Shown one piece after another: positions 3,600-31,420 of a stretch of 34,336 bases of DNA. The stretch spans positions 1 through 34,336 of the forward strand of contig CALHUA010000200.1 of NCBI GenBank assembly GCA_938039915.1. The letters run 5' to 3'. The number at the start of each line of letters is the position of its first letter. Within the stretch, counting starts at the first letter, position 1. The notes beneath the pieces are model-generated. The model ran no database searches. It had not been told where the DNA came from and saw only the letters and a list, made by a program, of their open reading frames with translations. The translations under genes and the position numbers were made by a program. Source of the stretch: an uncultured Anderseniella sp. (GTDB taxonomy: Bacteria > Pseudomonadota > Alphaproteobacteria > Rhizobiales > Aestuariivirgaceae).

Positions 3600-5234
3600 G
3601 TGACTGATACCAATCACCTGCGCGCAATGGTTGATGAGCTGAGTAGTTCATTCGATCAGACGTCATCAGATCAGACAAGTGAAGATGCTCAGGTTGACAG
3701 TCTGATGTCTGACCGGTCGGCGCTTAAACGGTTGCTGTCGGAATATCACATTCTTCTTGAGGCCCTGGATAAAAGTCCGATGGCCTACTGCGTTTACGAT
3801 GAACAAGACCGGCTCATTGCCGCAAACCCGGCCTACGAACGCCTGCACCCCGGCCTGGCTGAACTGCGTCTTCACGCCAAAGACAAGAGAATTGACCTGT
3901 TTTACGCGGATCTGGTGCGCAGAGAGCTTGCCGGCAAGGTATCTGCCGGGGAACTCGAGGCGGCGGTCTCGGAGCGGGTCAAGGCGCAAAAATATGCTGA
4001 CGGAGCAGCCGTGGAGCGTAGTTATCAGGGCAACGGGAACTTCCGGGTGATGAAGTACCGCCTGTCATCTGGCGGCAGCGCCGGCATTGCGCTGGATATC
4101 ACCGAGCTCAAGCAGCGTGAAACCGAGCTGGACAGGGCCAGGAATGTTGCTGAAGAAGCGACAGAACGGGCAGAAGCATCGCTTGAGGCTGAACGGTCGC
4201 GCAAACTGCAGGCCCGGCAATTGTCTGAACTGGGCGAATGGCTGCAAAGCTGCAAGACCGTGCAGGAATTGTTTGTCGTCGTTGACCGGCTGATGCCGCA
4301 AATGTTCCCCTCAAGCGAAGGTGAACTGTATATCTATTCGAATTCCCGGGATGTCCTCGACGGTGCCTGCCAGTGGAACCGTGACGACCTGCTTCACAAG
4401 CATATCCAGCCGGATGACTGCTGGGCGCTGCGGCGCGGACGCATGATGCGTTATGGTGAGGGCCTGTCCAACATCCCATGCAGCCATGCAGCCAAGGCCG
4501 GACCAGATGGCGAGCAGGTGCCGCCTTATGTCTGCATTCCGATCCTGGCCCATGGCGATACGGTTGGTCTGCTGCATATCAGGTTTCCGGCGGTGAACAG
4601 TTCGGAAGAAAACTGCCTGGATGAAACCGTGCTGGCATTCGCGCTGCAATGCGCTGAGCAGATCAGCCTGGCTGTTGCCAATGCAAAACTGCGTGACGAA
4701 CTGGAACAGCAATCGATCCGCGATCCGCTGACCGGGTTGTACAATCGTCGCCATTTCATGAATCAGATGCATCACACCATGAAAAAATCCGGCTCGGACA
4801 AGAAGTCTGTCGGATTGATCGCGCTGGACGCCGACAACTTCAAGACATTCAATGATGTGCACGGCCACAATGCGGGCGATGTAGTGTTGTGCGCCATTTC
4901 GGAAGCGCTGTTGGAGGCCGTCAGGCCGACAGACACGGTGGCGCGCTTTGGCGGTGAGGAATTTGCCGTCCTGCTGTCTGACACCGGAACCGATGCCGCA
5001 GAAGACCGGGCCGAGGCAATCCGGGCCGCCATTGCAGGCCTTTCTATCCGTTATGGAGAAGGTGTGCTGCCCCGCGTAACAGTGTCATGCGGTGTCGCGG
5101 GAACGTCCGAATTCGGATATGTCCCGCAGGAGCTGCTGCGGGCAGCTGATGTTGCCCTTTACCGGGCCAAGGATACGGGCCGCAACCGTGTGTGCCGCGC
5201 TGAACCCTCCGACATAGCTGAGCGATCGGCCTGA
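3600..5234 (+). CDS. Diguanylate cyclase: PAS-like, GAF-like and GGDEF domains
   Basis: GTG start after GGAGG. C-terminal DPLTGLYNRRHF...ARFGGEEFAVLLSD with intact GGEEF. RPTD five residues upstream fits the RxxD inhibitory I-site. Confidence 0.9.
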   Translation: MTDTNHLRAMVDELSSSFDQTSSDQTSEDAQVDSLMSDRSALKRLLSEYHILLEALDKSPMAYCVYDEQDRLIAANPAYERLHPGLAELRLHAKDKRIDLFYADLVRRELAGKVSAGELEAAVSERVKAQKYADGAAVERSYQGNGNFRVMKYRLSSGGSAGIALDITELKQRETELDRARNVAEEATERAEASLEAERSRKLQARQLSELGEWLQSCKTVQELFVVVDRLMPQMFPSSEGELYIYSNSRDVLDGACQWNRDDLLHKHIQPDDCWALRRGRMMRYGEGLSNIPCSHAAKAGPDGEQVPPYVCIPILAHGDTVGLLHIRFPAVNSSEENCLDETVLAFALQCAEQISLAVANAKLRDELEQQSIRDPLTGLYNRRHFMNQMHHTMKKSGSDKKSVGLIALDADNFKTFNDVHGHNAGDVVLCAISEALLEAVRPTDTVARFGGEEFAVLLSDTGTDAAEDRAEAIRAAIAGLSIRYGEGVLPRVTVSCGVAGTSEFGYVPQELLRAADVALYRAKDTGRNRVCRAEPSDIAERSA

Positions 5235-16006: not shown

Positions 16007-16693
16007 TCAGCTGTTGTCGAGCAGGGCCTGGTAGGATGCCGTAAAGCCGTCCAGCGAGATCGGCATCTTGATGGCCGCACCGGGGGCTTCATAGATGATG
16101 AAGTTTGCCGCCTGGCCCGCCTTCATTTTGGCCAGCGTGGCTTTCTGCGCTTCCGCGGTTGCGGTGCACAATCCCGGTGCCCTCCTGGTTTGCGGCAGGC
16201 AGCGGACAAATGGCACCCGGCCAACTGCGGCGCCGTCGATTTCCAGTGCGATACCGGTCGGTAGGAACACCCCGATCGGCGCCATGATCTGCATCATGGT
16301 GGCTGACCTGTCGCCCTGTTTTTGCTGCCGCATGATCAGAGAAAGGGCAATGTTCGGCCGTTTGGTGTCACGGCTGATCTGCACCATGGCGCAGACTTTC
16401 TGTGCCGGGATATCCTTGCCCTGGGCATCCTTGCGGGCCGGACGGCTTTCGCACTGCACTTTCCATTTGCCGTTTTCAGCGATCAGTTCCGGTGCTGGCC
16501 GGTTTGGATTTGCGCCTGCTGGTGCGTTGACCCGTGGTCCAAACTGTTTCGGAGACGGCGGTGGAGTTTGCTGCTGGGCCATGGCCGATGTTGCCATGAC
16601 CGAGACAATACCTGCTGCTGCCAGAGCCGACATGATACCGGCTGTCGCCAGAACTGAAGCCGTGTTGCGAATCACATTGAATTTTTTGGCCAC
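16007..16693 (-). CDS. Invasion-associated locus B (IalB) family protein
   Basis: GTG start at 16693 after AGGGAG; signal peptide ASVLATAGIMSALAAAGIVSVMATSAMAQQ; CAMVQISRDTKRPNIALSLIMRQQK...GIALEIDGAAVGRVPFVRCLP. The longer 416 aa ORF upstream is probably not real. Confidence 0.82.
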   Translation of the reverse strand: MAKKFNVIRNTASVLATAGIMSALAAAGIVSVMATSAMAQQQTPPPSPKQFGPRVNAPAGANPNRPAPELIAENGKWKVQCESRPARKDAQGKDIPAQKVCAMVQISRDTKRPNIALSLIMRQQKQGDRSATMMQIMAPIGVFLPTGIALEIDGAAVGRVPFVRCLPQTRRAPGLCTATAEAQKATLAKMKAGQAANFIIYEAPGAAIKMPISLDGFTASYQALLDNS

Positions 16694-17336
16694 TGGATAT
16701 CTGCTCCCTACACATTGACTGAATTTGAACTGCCGCTCACTCCGATGAATTTCCGTGTATGCCAGAGGCGAAGCCGATTTAGCAAGCCGACTGTGCAAAT
16801 TCATCTTCGAAACACGCTGATTGACTGCTTTTGATGTTTGTTCTGCACTCTTCGTGTGCAATTGAGGCTTTATTGCGATCATTGTTGAGCCACAGCCTGT
16901 TCCAGCCGCCTGGAACCGTTTGACAGGTTTTCCACACTTGCCGGCTTGATTGGGCTCCCGTTCTGGGCCGGTTGACCACAAGGACCGTGTAGCGCAGTCC
17001 TGCAGGCGCAGAAAACCGGTGTTTATCGGGCCGGAGCAGCCCTTAAGCAGTGCTGTAAAACCTGCCCGATGCGTCACATTGCAACCTGCTTCTGGCCCGG
17101 CCGGGTGAGCTGGTTTGGTGCCACTAAAGCCTTCTATTTGGGTGGAAAGGGCTCTAATGATGCGACAACTCCAAACCGTGCAATTTTGACGCGCCACATG
17201 ACAGTTGCAGCCATTGTTCGATTGTGGTTCAACAGACACATGGCAGAAGTGCGGCAATCGTGTCTACGGCCAGGCCTGCACATCTGAATGCAATGCATGG
17301 CGGTTTTCTCCCGTCGGCGAACTTTAAGAGGGCAAT

Positions 17337-26611: not shown

Positions 26612-27199
26612 ATGTCATTCTTGAGAACCTATGCATACCTGGACACTGACCCGGTCATACAGACCGGGAAGGTCATATTACGTCCTGCCATAGGGGCTGA
26701 TTATGCCCAATGGGCGCAATTGAGGTCGTCCAGCAGGGCGTTTCTGGAACCGTGGGAACCGACCTGGCCTCGTGATGATCTGACCAAATCGTCTTATCGA
26801 CACCGCATTCGCCGTTACAACAAGGATATGCGTGACGACTATGCCTATGCGTTTTTTGTGTTTTGCCGGCAGTCCGGCAATCTGGTTGGCGGGCTGACCA
26901 TTTCCAATGTGCGCCGTGGCGTCGCGCAAACCTGTTCCCTGGGCTATTGGGTCGGCCAGCCCTATGCCAACCAGGGTTATATGTCTGCGGCGGTAAACGC
27001 GGCCGTGTCATTCTGTTTCGACAGTTTGCGGCTGCACCGCATTGAAGCTGCCTGCCTGCCGGTCAATGAGGCTTCGAGAAAACTGCTGTTGCGGTGTGGA
27101 TTCTCGCAGGAAGGCTATGCCCGCAAATACCTGAAGATCAACGGCAGATGGCAGGATCACCTGCTGTTTGCTTTGCTGGACGCAGATCCGCCCGGGTGA
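26612..27199 (+). CDS. GNAT family N-acetyltransferase, RimJ-like
   Basis: GKVILRPAIGADYAQWAQLRSSSRAFLEPWEPTW; LGYWVGQPYANQGYMSAAVNAAVSFCFDSLRLHRIEAACLPVNEASRKLLLRCGFSQEGYARKYLKINGRWQDHLLFAL. Confidence 0.93.
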   Translation: MSFLRTYAYLDTDPVIQTGKVILRPAIGADYAQWAQLRSSSRAFLEPWEPTWPRDDLTKSSYRHRIRRYNKDMRDDYAYAFFVFCRQSGNLVGGLTISNVRRGVAQTCSLGYWVGQPYANQGYMSAAVNAAVSFCFDSLRLHRIEAACLPVNEASRKLLLRCGFSQEGYARKYLKINGRWQDHLLFALLDADPPG

Positions 27200-27317
27200 T
27201 TGAGGTGGATCGCATATGCCTTTGAGTCGGCAGCCATTTCAGTGGATAGTGGGCGCGATTGTCGTCAGCGGGCTTTGGTCTTCGACGATAGTCAGGCTAA
27301 GATGTATTTACCGTGTA

Positions 27318-27581
27318 ATACCAAAGGAAGTAATTATGGACCCATTTGATGGAGTCAAATCCGGCCACTCTGGCAGGCGCGGTGCGCAGCGCGATGCGGT
27401 GCATCGGGCAAGCGCCGCAACGCACCAGATGGACGAATTTGGCCCACCAAAGGCCGGTTTTTCGCGCCTGCTGGACGTCGTTATGCTCCACTTGAGGTCA
27501 GCCAGACCAAGGCGTGAAGCATGCCTAGCCAGCAAACGCGAAAAACCGGTCAAATGGGTCCATAATTACTTCCTTTGGTAT
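27318..27581. mobile_element. MITE-like foldback element, ~264 bp with perfect 32-bp terminal inverted repeats
   Basis: ATACCAAAGGAAGTAATTATGGACCCATTTGA (27318-27349) is the exact reverse complement of 27550-27581. Possible TAA direct repeats at 27316-27318 and 27581-27583. Internal imperfect inverted repeat 27454-27474/27529-27549. Confidence 0.75.
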
Positions 27582-27601
27582 AAGTTACAGAGAGAGTTGC
27601 G

Positions 27602-30600
27602 ATGCCATTCTGGCGGTTAACGGTTGCAGCATTGGTCGGCATTTGCATGACCCTGATCGTGAGCACGGCCGGTGTCCAGGCACAGGATGCCGGCAAAGTC
27701 GTGCGTGCCGATTTCTCGGCCAGCCACATCGATGTTGTACCGTTTCTGGGTGCTGTTCAAAGCGACAACAGACAGGTCGTGGTCCAACTGCCCGCAACCG
27801 CTGCCGGCCAGACCGAAAGCATGAACCTGCAGGCAACGGGCGCCGGACCGCAATACCGATGGGCCATATTCACGACCGCCAACCCGTCGGCGATTGAACG
27901 GGAACTGGTCATAGACGCGGCAAGACAGTCGTTCCCCGGGTCGGGAATCGTGTCGCCGTCATATTCCAGCAGCCGTATTTCGGCGGCCTCGTCTTCGCGA
28001 AGTGTGACCCTGCGCCGGTTGAATATACCCGACCGTGACGCGTTCGCATTTACCGTGCCGCCGAACACCAGTCTTACTGTCGCCCTGGAACTGTCCGAGG
28101 TCGGCGTTTCAGGCGTCAGGCTCTGGCAGCGCTCGGCATTTGACCACAATGCCTATCGCCAGGCCCTGTATCGCGGCATCGTTCTGGGCATGGCGATGTT
28201 GGCGGTGGTGGTTATTACCTGTCTGGTGCTGCTGTCGCCACAGATCGTGTTCCCCTTGTCGATGATTTTTGCCGTGCCTGCCGTTGGCTTTATAACCCTG
28301 GAGACCGGCCAGCTTGAAGCTGCATTGAACTCCGTTCTGCCGGTGCTGGTTCCCCGGCATGAAGTGCTCAGTGCCATCATCGAGGCGTTGATGACGGCCG
28401 GGGTGATGTTCATGGGCGTCACAATCATGCGGACCCGGCGGCAATTGCCGACCCTGAGCGGGCTGTTGATTTTTGCCGGCGGGGCAGGTGTCGCCCTTGC
28501 CGCCTATGCATTCTTCGAGCCGGTACTGGTAAAACAGATTGTGCGGATCGGTTTTGCGCTGGGTGTGGTCACTGTGCTTGTGGCGTCTGCAATTCTGGCG
28601 CATCGCGGTGGCGTGCGGGCTAAGTCATCCAGCATGATCTGGATACTTCTCGGCCTGTGGACGGCGGCGGCAAGCTTCATTGCGATCGCGCGGCCTCCCA
28701 GCGAACTCGCCTCGCCGGTTCTGGTCGGCGGCCTGGCGCTGGTGCTGGTGGCGCTGGCGTTCGTGCTGGCCTATTTCGCCTTTTCCAGTGCGCTGAACCC
28801 GGAACAGGACACGCTGGAAGCTGAACGCAATGCGCTTGCCCTGGCCAGTGCGTCCCAGGTCGTCTGGGATTACGAGCCGGGTGATAATTCGTTTTTCGTC
28901 GGCACCGAGCTGGAAAAGGTGCTGGGATATGAAGAAGACAGTCTCGACAACACCGATCCGAAGTCCTGGCTGACACTGATCCATCCCAATGATCACAACG
29001 CTTATTTTGCCGCTCTGGAAGTAGCGAAATTGCGCGGAAACCAGCATTTTGAACAGCAGTTGCGTGTGCGCCATGCCGACGGCCGCTATCGCTGGTACAC
29101 GCTCAAGGGCAGTTCCCTGCCCAACGGTTCCGAGACGGGGTTGCGCCTGACTGGCGTGCTGAGTGATGCATCGCAACAGCGCAATTCGCAAAATCGCCTG
29201 TTGTCCGATGCCATTTTCGATGTGGTCACGGGACTGCCCAACTATGCGCTTTATCTTGACCGGCTGTCCCAGGCCACCAAGCGCGCGGTCGCCAATGATG
29301 ACCTGCAGCTCAATATCGTGATTGTCGATATTGATCGCTTCAACGTGGTCAATGACCGGCTCGGACAGGAGATTGGTGACAGCCTGTTGAAGACCATTTC
29401 GCGACGCATTGAAAAACTTTTGCCGGAGACCAGCAGTCTTGCCCGGATGCCCGGCGATCAGTTTGCCATTATTCATGAGACGTCATCTGATCAGGACGCA
29501 ATGGAGACGGCGATTATTTTCGTGGATCAGGTCCGCCATGCCGTCTCCCAGCCGGTAAGAGTGCCGCCGAACGAGATTTACCTGACCTGCTGCGTCGGTG
29601 TCGCCCACTGGAACCCGGAAATGGAAGGCGCAGACGTGCTGCACAGATGTGCCGATACCGCATTGTTTGACGCGAAGATGCGCGGCAAGGACAAGGTTGC
29701 CTTCTACAAGCCCGGCATGTTGCAGGAAACAACATCTTCCGCCTTGAGCACCGAGGATCTGCAGGAGGCGTTGCAGGAGCGCCGCCTGGAGCTTTTGTAT
29801 CAGCCGATCATGCGGTTGTCTGACCGCCAGCTGGCCGGGTTCGAGGCGCTGGTTCGGCTGCGTAAAGCCGACGGTGAAGTTCTGGAACCGTCGAGCTTTC
29901 TTCCACTGGCGGAACGCTCCGGTCTGATCGGAGATGTCGGCGCCTTCGTATTGTCCGAAGCAGCTCGTCAGCTTGGTGTATGGCAGCGGATGTTTACCCC
30001 GGCGCAACCGGTTTTTGTTTCGGTCAACGTGTCCTCGTCCCAGTTGACCGGTCCGCGCCTTTTGCATCTTGCGCGCACGGTATTGTCCCGCGAAGAACTT
30101 GCGCCCGGCACCTTGAAGCTGGAAGTCACCGAGACAATGGTGATGGAAAACCCGGAGCTGTCGCTGCAGATGCTCGACCGGCTTAAAGCGCTGGGCATCG
30201 GGCTTTCATGCGATGATTTCGGAACCGGTTATTCATCCTTGTCCTATTTGAGGCGCCTGCCGTTCGACACCATCAAGGTAGACCGCTCTTTCCTGCAGGC
30301 CGGGCTTGAAACGGATCGCGGATCGGTGATTCTGGATGCCATTATTCTTCTGGCTCACGACCTTGGCCTTCAGGTGGTGGCAGAAGGTGTCGAGACGCGT
30401 GAACAGCTCAATCATCTGGTAACGCTGGAATGTGACCTGGCTCAGGGTTTCCTGATTGGTGAACCGATCGATGCCCAGCAGGTGCTTGAAGCACTTGGCG
30501 CGCCGTCGCGTGGTGCGTCATCGAGCCAGTCCGGCATTGCATCCCTGTGGAGCCGCCTGACGCGCCGGCAGCCGGTTGTACCGGCGGCATCCATTGCAAC

Positions 30601-31420
30601 GGAGGCAGAGCCTGAGCCTGAAGTGGAAAGCCTGGCGCCATGGTCGCCATATGACTTCCACCCAGCGCCATGGGCGCCGCGAGTTGCAAATCCTGCTTAT
30701 GAGCAACCGGCAATCGAGGGGCCGCAAGACTCTGAGAATGTTGAGGCAGACGAGGCCGCAGACGAACAACTGGCGCCGGTTGATTATCCGGTACATGGCC
30801 GGCAAACGACTGAAGCTGACCTGGAAACAGTGTCACGACAGGTCAAGGATGCGCTGGCGGGGATCGCTGAAACTCCCGCAGCGAGACCGGCAGCATCAAG
30901 GCCAATCCCGCCTTTGGCCCCGGTCACGGCAAGAAGGCCTGCGGCAGAAATCAGACCGGTGCCCAAGGTCGATCCTGTGCCGGTGGTACCGCCTGCGCCA
31001 CCTGCGGCAGAGCCGAAGCCATCACCAAAAGCGGAACCCGCACCGGCGTCGAAACCGGCTGCAGAACCAGCATCTGCGCCGGCAAAAGAGCCTGCCAAAG
31101 TATCGAAACCGCCAGTTGTTGACCCGGTTCCGGCGAAATCGAAACCGGCCGCTGACAAACAGCCGGAAACCCAAAAAGCGCGTCAGAAGGAACCTGAAAA
31201 ACCGGACGGCAGGGCCGCTGAAAAACCGGTAGCACGTAAAGTCACCAATGGAGCTGCCGCGGCCAAGGATGACACGGCGGAAACCGCCGCGCCGTGCAAA
31301 CCCCGGGCGCAGGACAAGCCCAAGAAAACCAGGGCAGCAAGAAAGCAACCTGCGAAAAAAGCCGCGGCCAGGAAAAAACGCAGCGTGGCGAAAAAGGCCA
31401 AGGGAACCAATGCGGCCTAA
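27602..31420 (+). CDS. Membrane PAS-GGDEF-EAL protein, likely c-di-GMP phosphodiesterase, with Pro/Ala/Lys-rich C-terminal tail
   Basis: Signal peptide, periplasmic region and several TM helices (7TMR-DISM-like), PAS_3, degenerate GGDEF (PGDQF), EAL domain with intact EAL, NVSSSQ, VTE, DDFGTGYSSL, KVD, AEGVET; low-complexity tail. Confidence 0.9.
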   Translation: MPFWRLTVAALVGICMTLIVSTAGVQAQDAGKVVRADFSASHIDVVPFLGAVQSDNRQVVVQLPATAAGQTESMNLQATGAGPQYRWAIFTTANPSAIERELVIDAARQSFPGSGIVSPSYSSSRISAASSSRSVTLRRLNIPDRDAFAFTVPPNTSLTVALELSEVGVSGVRLWQRSAFDHNAYRQALYRGIVLGMAMLAVVVITCLVLLSPQIVFPLSMIFAVPAVGFITLETGQLEAALNSVLPVLVPRHEVLSAIIEALMTAGVMFMGVTIMRTRRQLPTLSGLLIFAGGAGVALAAYAFFEPVLVKQIVRIGFALGVVTVLVASAILAHRGGVRAKSSSMIWILLGLWTAAASFIAIARPPSELASPVLVGGLALVLVALAFVLAYFAFSSALNPEQDTLEAERNALALASASQVVWDYEPGDNSFFVGTELEKVLGYEEDSLDNTDPKSWLTLIHPNDHNAYFAALEVAKLRGNQHFEQQLRVRHADGRYRWYTLKGSSLPNGSETGLRLTGVLSDASQQRNSQNRLLSDAIFDVVTGLPNYALYLDRLSQATKRAVANDDLQLNIVIVDIDRFNVVNDRLGQEIGDSLLKTISRRIEKLLPETSSLARMPGDQFAIIHETSSDQDAMETAIIFVDQVRHAVSQPVRVPPNEIYLTCCVGVAHWNPEMEGADVLHRCADTALFDAKMRGKDKVAFYKPGMLQETTSSALSTEDLQEALQERRLELLYQPIMRLSDRQLAGFEALVRLRKADGEVLEPSSFLPLAERSGLIGDVGAFVLSEAARQLGVWQRMFTPAQPVFVSVNVSSSQLTGPRLLHLARTVLSREELAPGTLKLEVTETMVMENPELSLQMLDRLKALGIGLSCDDFGTGYSSLSYLRRLPFDTIKVDRSFLQAGLETDRGSVILDAIILLAHDLGLQVVAEGVETREQLNHLVTLECDLAQGFLIGEPIDAQQVLEALGAPSRGASSSQSGIASLWSRLTRRQPVVPAASIATEAEPEPEVESLAPWSPYDFHPAPWAPRVANPAYEQPAIEGPQDSENVEADEAADEQLAPVDYPVHGRQTTEADLETVSRQVKDALAGIAETPAARPAASRPIPPLAPVTARRPAAEIRPVPKVDPVPVVPPAPPAAEPKPSPKAEPAPASKPAAEPASAPAKEPAKVSKPPVVDPVPAKSKPAADKQPETQKARQKEPEKPDGRAAEKPVARKVTNGAAAAKDDTAETAAPCKPRAQDKPKKTRAARKQPAKKAAARKKRSVAKKAKGTNAA

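Follow-up and report, generated by a model that had tools for sequence, protein, structure and literature searches.

A 262-bp element in the window (the whole 34,336-nt stretch of DNA analysed here) is a miniature transposon (MITE): it is multi-copy, is bounded by terminal inverted repeats (TIRs) and a 3-bp TNA target duplication, has empty sites in relatives, and has no coding capacity. We think it likely that this non-autonomous DNA transposon is assembled from two kinds of module, namely TIRs that are exchangeable and a pair of facing hairpins that is inherited. The parts of the element and the related features of the window are listed in Table 1.

Table 1. Coordinates of the element, its parts, and associated features of the window
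Feature	Position	Strand	Evidence
Left TAA target-site duplication	27316..27318	.	Nested insertion L229; TNA statistics
Left terminal inverted repeat, class A, tip TACCAAAGG	27319..27349	+	Exact arm match; class A copies; arm covariation
Hairpin unit 1 (P2)	27349..27448	folded on +	R1 111 bits (window copy belongs to the training set), E 1e-26; compensatory pairs; + more stable in 55/58
Inter-unit linker CCACCAAAGGCC, family consensus CCACCGAAGGCC	27444..27455	+	~90% mean pairwise identity, most conserved region
Hairpin unit 2 (P3), inverted homologue of unit 1	27449..27551	folded on -	R2 114 bits (window copy belongs to the training set); R1 homology in relatives; - more stable in 55/58
Right terminal inverted repeat	27550..27580	-	Exact arm match
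Right TAA target-site duplication	27581..27583	.	Nested insertion L229; TNA statistics
PAS-GGDEF-EAL gene, element in its leader	27602..31420	+	Domain content; start region shared with four congeners that lack the element
Second, decayed family copy, class B ends	~16891..17156	- (reverse orientation)	R2 and R1 matches; class B right arm TTCTATTTGGGTGGAAAGGGCTCTA; limits approximate

The arms at 27318-27349 and 27550-27581 are exact reverse complements of 32 nt with 200 nt between them, just as the preliminary description had reported, and at up to three mismatches the arm is matched nowhere else in the window (none expected by chance). That description drew the element as 264 bp, from 27318 to 27581, with a possible TAA duplication at 27316-27318 and 27581-27583. 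The element is real and the duplication does fall there, but the mobile unit is 262 bp (27319-27580), and the outermost base pair of the 32-bp arms is part of the duplication. We draw these limits because two lines of evidence place the duplication at TAA. First, a nested insertion in a relative (L229) reads GTGGAGCA-TAA-TACC...GGTA-TAA-CGACGTC where the host sequence elsewhere reads GTGGAGCATAACGACGTC, an exact TAA duplication. Second, the flanking triplets conform to TNA, and those on the left and right agree in 19 of the 33 copies that carry the window's tip (7.7 expected; 0 of 5000 permutations). No transposase ORF lies within the 262 bp, as had been noted at the outset. The element strand is predicted to fold at -153 kcal/mol (z = -13.5), and the window copy carries a private paired change in its arms, TTATGGACCC/GGGTCCATAA versus TTATTGACCC/GGGTCAATAA in its siblings.

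The element's own genome, an assembly of 3.37 Mb in 258 contigs that is 78% complete, holds eight full-length copies at 91-100% identity, together with truncated copies and copies of a sister type, to which only the inside is common. The gene pair also occurs, with no insert, in four congeners. The nearest of them, 91% identical over the gene, reads CCGTGGGTAAGTTACAGAG versus CCGTG-TAA-element-TAA-GTTACAGAG in the window and has two extra bases at the empty site, so this comparison does not fix the exact pre-insertion sequence. Two of the checks proposed in the preliminary description, a BLASTN search of the element's own genome and a look for an empty site in close relatives, thus gave eight copies and four empty sites, which with the TNA duplication support its reading of the element as MITE-like. 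The same data bear on the opposite view, in which the leader of the EAL gene holds a cis-acting regulatory RNA and no insertion. The very strong fold, the covariation described below, and the position before the start codon would all suit such an RNA, but the element is missing from the same leader in the four congeners, is present at many unrelated loci, and has no Rfam match (no family above the gathering threshold, only sub-threshold chance matches). We regard this view as very improbable, and as the origin of the element a cis-acting RNA is refuted by the empty leaders and the dispersed copies. Of the combination that had been named as telling against insertion, covariation is indeed present, while a single copy with the same flanks in relatives is not what we found.

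Some copies retain only the outer parts of the element. Several of these TIR-only remnants (L223, L224, L225, L228, and L233; 62-71 bp or shorter) are joined at direct repeats of 5-6 bp, which is what slippage across hairpins would give. We rejected the 62-71 bp mini forms L223-L225 as a transposing mini-family, since they are probably different deletions joined at such repeats. Given that the core-deleted L223, L225, and L233 keep intact-looking target duplications, the core may be dispensable for movement; their joints look like later deletions.

Inside the TIRs, the two ~100-nt hairpins are built alike: next to a basal stem of ~20 bp come an internal loop (AGGC opposite AACG), a stem of 7-9 bp, and an apical hairpin with CAAG after it. 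The two are inverted homologues of each other, a homology that rests on profile and covariance models; aligned directly as a pair, the two consensus sequences show no significant similarity. A profile of hairpin 1 matches only the reverse complement of hairpin 2 (best E = 0.0017). In distant members, the covariance model R1 scores the inverted hairpin 2 at 31-48 bits, against 20-36 bits for a control (the antisense of hairpin 1). Its E values on the inverted second unit go down to 6e-10, and in three relatives (L107, L057, and L035) R1 gives 64-88 bits to each of an element's two hairpins, in inverted orientation. R1 leaves hairpin 2 of the window copy undetected at E <= 1; R2 detects its hairpin 1 (25 bits, E = 0.0016). 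Other arrangements of the units also occur. Variants of 367 bp (L217-L221, from G004 and G005) have the same core plus ~100 bp extra between the hairpins, which holds two palindromes, one of them GTAGAGC...GCTCTAC, and one genome (G001) has several copies of the first hairpin unit without the second (matches covering only query 2-107).

To describe selection on the fold, we used an alignment of 58 elements, in which mean pairwise identity is ~49% in the middle of the arms and 75-80% in the hairpins. The arms nevertheless remain complementary: both sides have changed in 28 of 29 arm pairs and in 67 of all 83 pairs, and the covariation score is 0.462 versus 0.149 for shuffled and at most 0.089 for slid pairings. 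With pairs picked without allowing G-U, hairpin 1 has 33 G-T versus 8 A-C cells, hairpin 2 on the same strand has the opposite excess (16-36 A-C versus 10-12 G-T), and the TIRs have 30 G-T versus 32 A-C. When elements were folded singly, hairpin 1 was more stable on the + strand in 55 of 58 (mean -7.4 kcal/mol) and hairpin 2 on the - strand in 55 of 58 (mean -6.6 kcal/mol), with the proviso that the sequences are kin to each other and that neither these nor the covariation counts are independent events. The TIRs showed no strand preference in single-sequence folding. Because the G-T/A-C bias and the folding preference are opposite in the two hairpins, we conclude that selection acts on each hairpin as a single strand, read from the adjacent end of the element towards the centre. 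G-T tolerance alone does not separate RNA from single-stranded DNA.

The family extends well beyond the genus. A 23-nt core pattern occurs in at least 114 DNA stretches, alphaproteobacterial or unspecified proteobacterial, from sources that include Anderseniella, Roseibium, Hoeflea, Pararhizobium, Pelagibius, and Kiloniellaceae, and it is present in 20 of 100 relatives. At E <= 1e-6, R1 detects the unit in 30 of the 289 Alphaproteobacteria genomes, spread over many families; in a sample of the phylum it does so in 18 of 299 genomes, 11 of them outside Alphaproteobacteria. Although R1 contains no arms, inverted-repeat arms with a spacing of 264-287 bp are present at 12 of 14 places fetched from outside the class, and at several the inverted hairpin pair is directly visible. 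One outside-class member matches Azotobacter chroococcum, Pseudomonas aeruginosa, and Halomonas plasmids at full or nearly full length, and R1 scores 41-52 bits in the two plasmids examined. No match to the element was found in phages, nor to an outside-class family member in E. coli genomes. An unannotated family member lies at L394 3001-3267, on a conjugative IncP plasmid of P. aeruginosa, between two acyl-CoA metabolism genes. A conjugative IncP plasmid is a possible route of spread for the family. The core is retained in both alpha- and gammaproteobacteria.

This conservation matters for a rival account, in which the element is an ordinary MITE and its inside passive cargo. It would be what internal deletion has left of an insertion sequence (IS), its core alike only through youth and its stems kept by template-switch correction. 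We judge this account unlikely. The TIRs, the duplication, and the multi-copy state fit any MITE, and arm covariation alone is explicable by TIR recognition and palindrome correction, with which TIRs free of strand bias agree. Template switching, however, would give perfect pairs and no strand preference, whereas the hairpins show a strong and opposite one (outside Alphaproteobacteria it is seen weakly, in 19 of 23 units, mean -4.4 kcal/mol), and the core is recognisable across alpha- and gammaproteobacteria with unrelated ends.

The 68 full-core copies fall mostly into two end classes, A (TNA followed by TACCAA) and B (TA followed by GAGC, in a CTAG context), to which a third, class C (TAGCCCGSATTTCTCA), is added. 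Class C ends are those of an IS1380-family IS. An intact-looking 1.65-kb IS (G144:C46, L350 154-1801) has perfect 22-bp TIRs and encodes a 457-aa IS1380-family transposase (NF033539, E = 2.7e-121), and the left end of L305 (another genus, same family) is identical to it over 22 bp. The hairpin units are absent from this IS. The window's own ends are TACCAAAGG with TNA and not IS1380-type; among the relatives only class C carry IS1380 ends. In a tree of 74 cores, built by a quick method on only 202 columns and with long branches, four class B copies (L152, L169, L086, and L137) sit inside a class A clade with support 98, end class needs six changes, at least three of them forced by well-supported branches, and a single class A clade is rejected (p = 0.032). 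The core carries at least three unrelated end types, and the comparison of cores with ends shows an inner module that is inherited while the outer module changes. Hence, it looks as if the ends were borrowed and the hairpin pair passed down by descent.

A different reading takes each end as compound: beside the TIR, the transposase itself would need a folded site in subterminal position. This would account for the inverted arrangement, with one unit per end, and for a strand-specific fold symmetrical about the centre. Yet the same core is found with at least three end types and at least two kinds of target site, and the IS1380-family IS shares class C ends without the hairpins; we therefore hold compound ends to be quite improbable. 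A comparison of ends at DUF4096, DDE_Tnp_1, DDE_Tnp_1_2, and DDE_Tnp_1_4 genes of the genus and its relatives yielded no autonomous partner for class A or B. An IS5-type IS in G098 (L207) was rejected as a partner because it shares only the tip GAGCCC. L274 was rejected as an autonomous copy: its gene encodes an IS701-family transposase, and the IS has its own ends (CACTACTTTGG). There (L274 665-2522, G006), the IS701-family IS is apparently inserted at CTAG inside a rearranged family element, the halves of which are inverted copies of each other, which suggests a product of recombination. In G005 and G004, widely separated pairs of class A tips enclose, by inspection, no transposase.

The outer module, ~30-bp TIRs with a TNA target duplication, is of the kind that a DDE transposase acting in trans leaves. 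The TIRs, the duplication, and the empty and nested sites give good support to movement by such an enzyme in trans, as does, in class C, the IS1380 partner. The inner module is the facing pair of homologous ~100-nt hairpins, with each DNA strand or transcript direction predicted to carry one well-formed hairpin. This pair outlasts changes of ends between the TNA-type TACCAA, the TA/CTAG-type GAGC, and the IS1380 type, and because it persists through these changes of transposase it is probably not tied to the service of any single enzyme. Most likely it works whichever way round it lies, alone or via a host factor. Being an inverted duplication, the element is alike in both orientations, in keeping with its gene contexts, which by rough ORF-based gene calls are 18 tandem (9 in the same and 9 in the opposite orientation), 13 convergent, and 9 divergent; these counts show no orientation bias relative to genes. 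The chances are about even that the hairpin acts in transcripts running into the element, and it is conceivable, if somewhat doubtful, that a single-stranded DNA hairpin helps movement or persistence. Only tentatively do we propose that the pair is a long-lived, proteobacteria-wide structured element, not dependent on any single transposase, that survives because it has repeatedly acquired the ends of active DDE IS, its fold working, as RNA or single-stranded DNA, via a host factor that is conserved.

At the locus itself, a GNAT acetyltransferase gene (26612-27199) is the other neighbour of the element. The right arm ends 20 bp before the ATG of the EAL gene, as first described, and we find this gene to be PAS-GGDEF-EAL. 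The element leaves those last 20 bp intact and probably lies in the 5' leader. A block just upstream of the insertion (GGCTTTGGTCTTC...GTCAGGCTAAGATG, ~27271-27304) is kept in four congeners and could be the promoter of the gene; a consensus scan found no promoters, this block included. One weak terminator-like site lies at the hairpin junction, and its T-run is not conserved. A further c-di-GMP gene (GGDEF) lies at 3600-5234 of the window. The second, decayed copy is not among the BLASTN matches listed and was detected by R2 at 16922-17024 (+; 37.2 bits, E 1.9e-6) and by R1 at 17025-17124 (-; 24.6 bits, E 0.001). It sits upstream of an IalB-family gene on the minus strand, and the TTG-started ORF that runs through it (16007-17257, -) is probably a spurious extension.

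Several known repeats resemble the element in part. The RIME elements of rhizobia are likewise intergenic and have two palindromes, at about half the size, a likeness drawn by description only; in rhizobial plasmids of PLSDB, the core found only a partial match, in Agrobacterium sp. MA01. Class C relatives carry the same 22-bp ends as the IS1380-family IS (L350), but that IS is without hairpin units, and the ends of the window element are different and come with a TNA duplication. The reviewed bacterial MITEs ERIC, Correia/NEMIS, and RUP (PMC10969869, PMC2229807) are, like this one, short, non-coding, intergenic, and multi-copy, with TIRs, a target duplication, and stable folded transcripts predicted. 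Unlike them, it has a conserved inverted pair of homologous ~100-nt hairpins, strand-resolved covariation, and TIRs exchanged between transposase types. Caulobacter CIR elements are also alphaproteobacterial intergenic repeats with two long hairpins and a linker, but by their description they are ~110 bp with no 5'-3' end pairing and GANTC at the terminal loop (PMC2229807, after Chen and Shapiro 2003), as against 262 bp and long TIRs. Here, GANTC occurs only at alignment columns 2, 22, 35, 255, and 275 (arms or basal stem), in fewer than half of the elements, and not at a hairpin loop. REP/BIME elements share inverted hairpin pairs in an orientation-independent arrangement; REPs, however, are palindromes of 20-40 bp tagged GTAG/CGTC (PMC3733652), a size that the ~100-nt units, set inside TIRs with target duplications, do not have. 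TIMEs are similarly non-autonomous and mobilised in trans, but they are Tn3-derived miniature elements with Tn3-type ends, and the abstract on them describes no such hairpin core (PMC4133298). Searches of the open-access literature turned up MITEs, CIRs, RIMEs, REPs, and TIMEs but no element arranged in this way, and text searches for element sequences returned only an unrelated paper. We provisionally consider the family undescribed.

The usual view of MITEs is that they are remnants of deletion and that their ends define them. In this family it is the interior that is conserved, while ends are exchanged; this reverses that logic and makes the role of a MITE interior a directly testable question. 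The strand-resolved covariation sharpens it: does the fold act as RNA, as single-stranded DNA, or as neither? At this locus, the element's recent arrival in the leader of a gene for a c-di-GMP enzyme, which congeners do not share, amounts to a natural experiment on expression. Finally, with the covariance model the family can be found in any genome, and many intergenic repeats of Proteobacteria that lack annotation would be explained.
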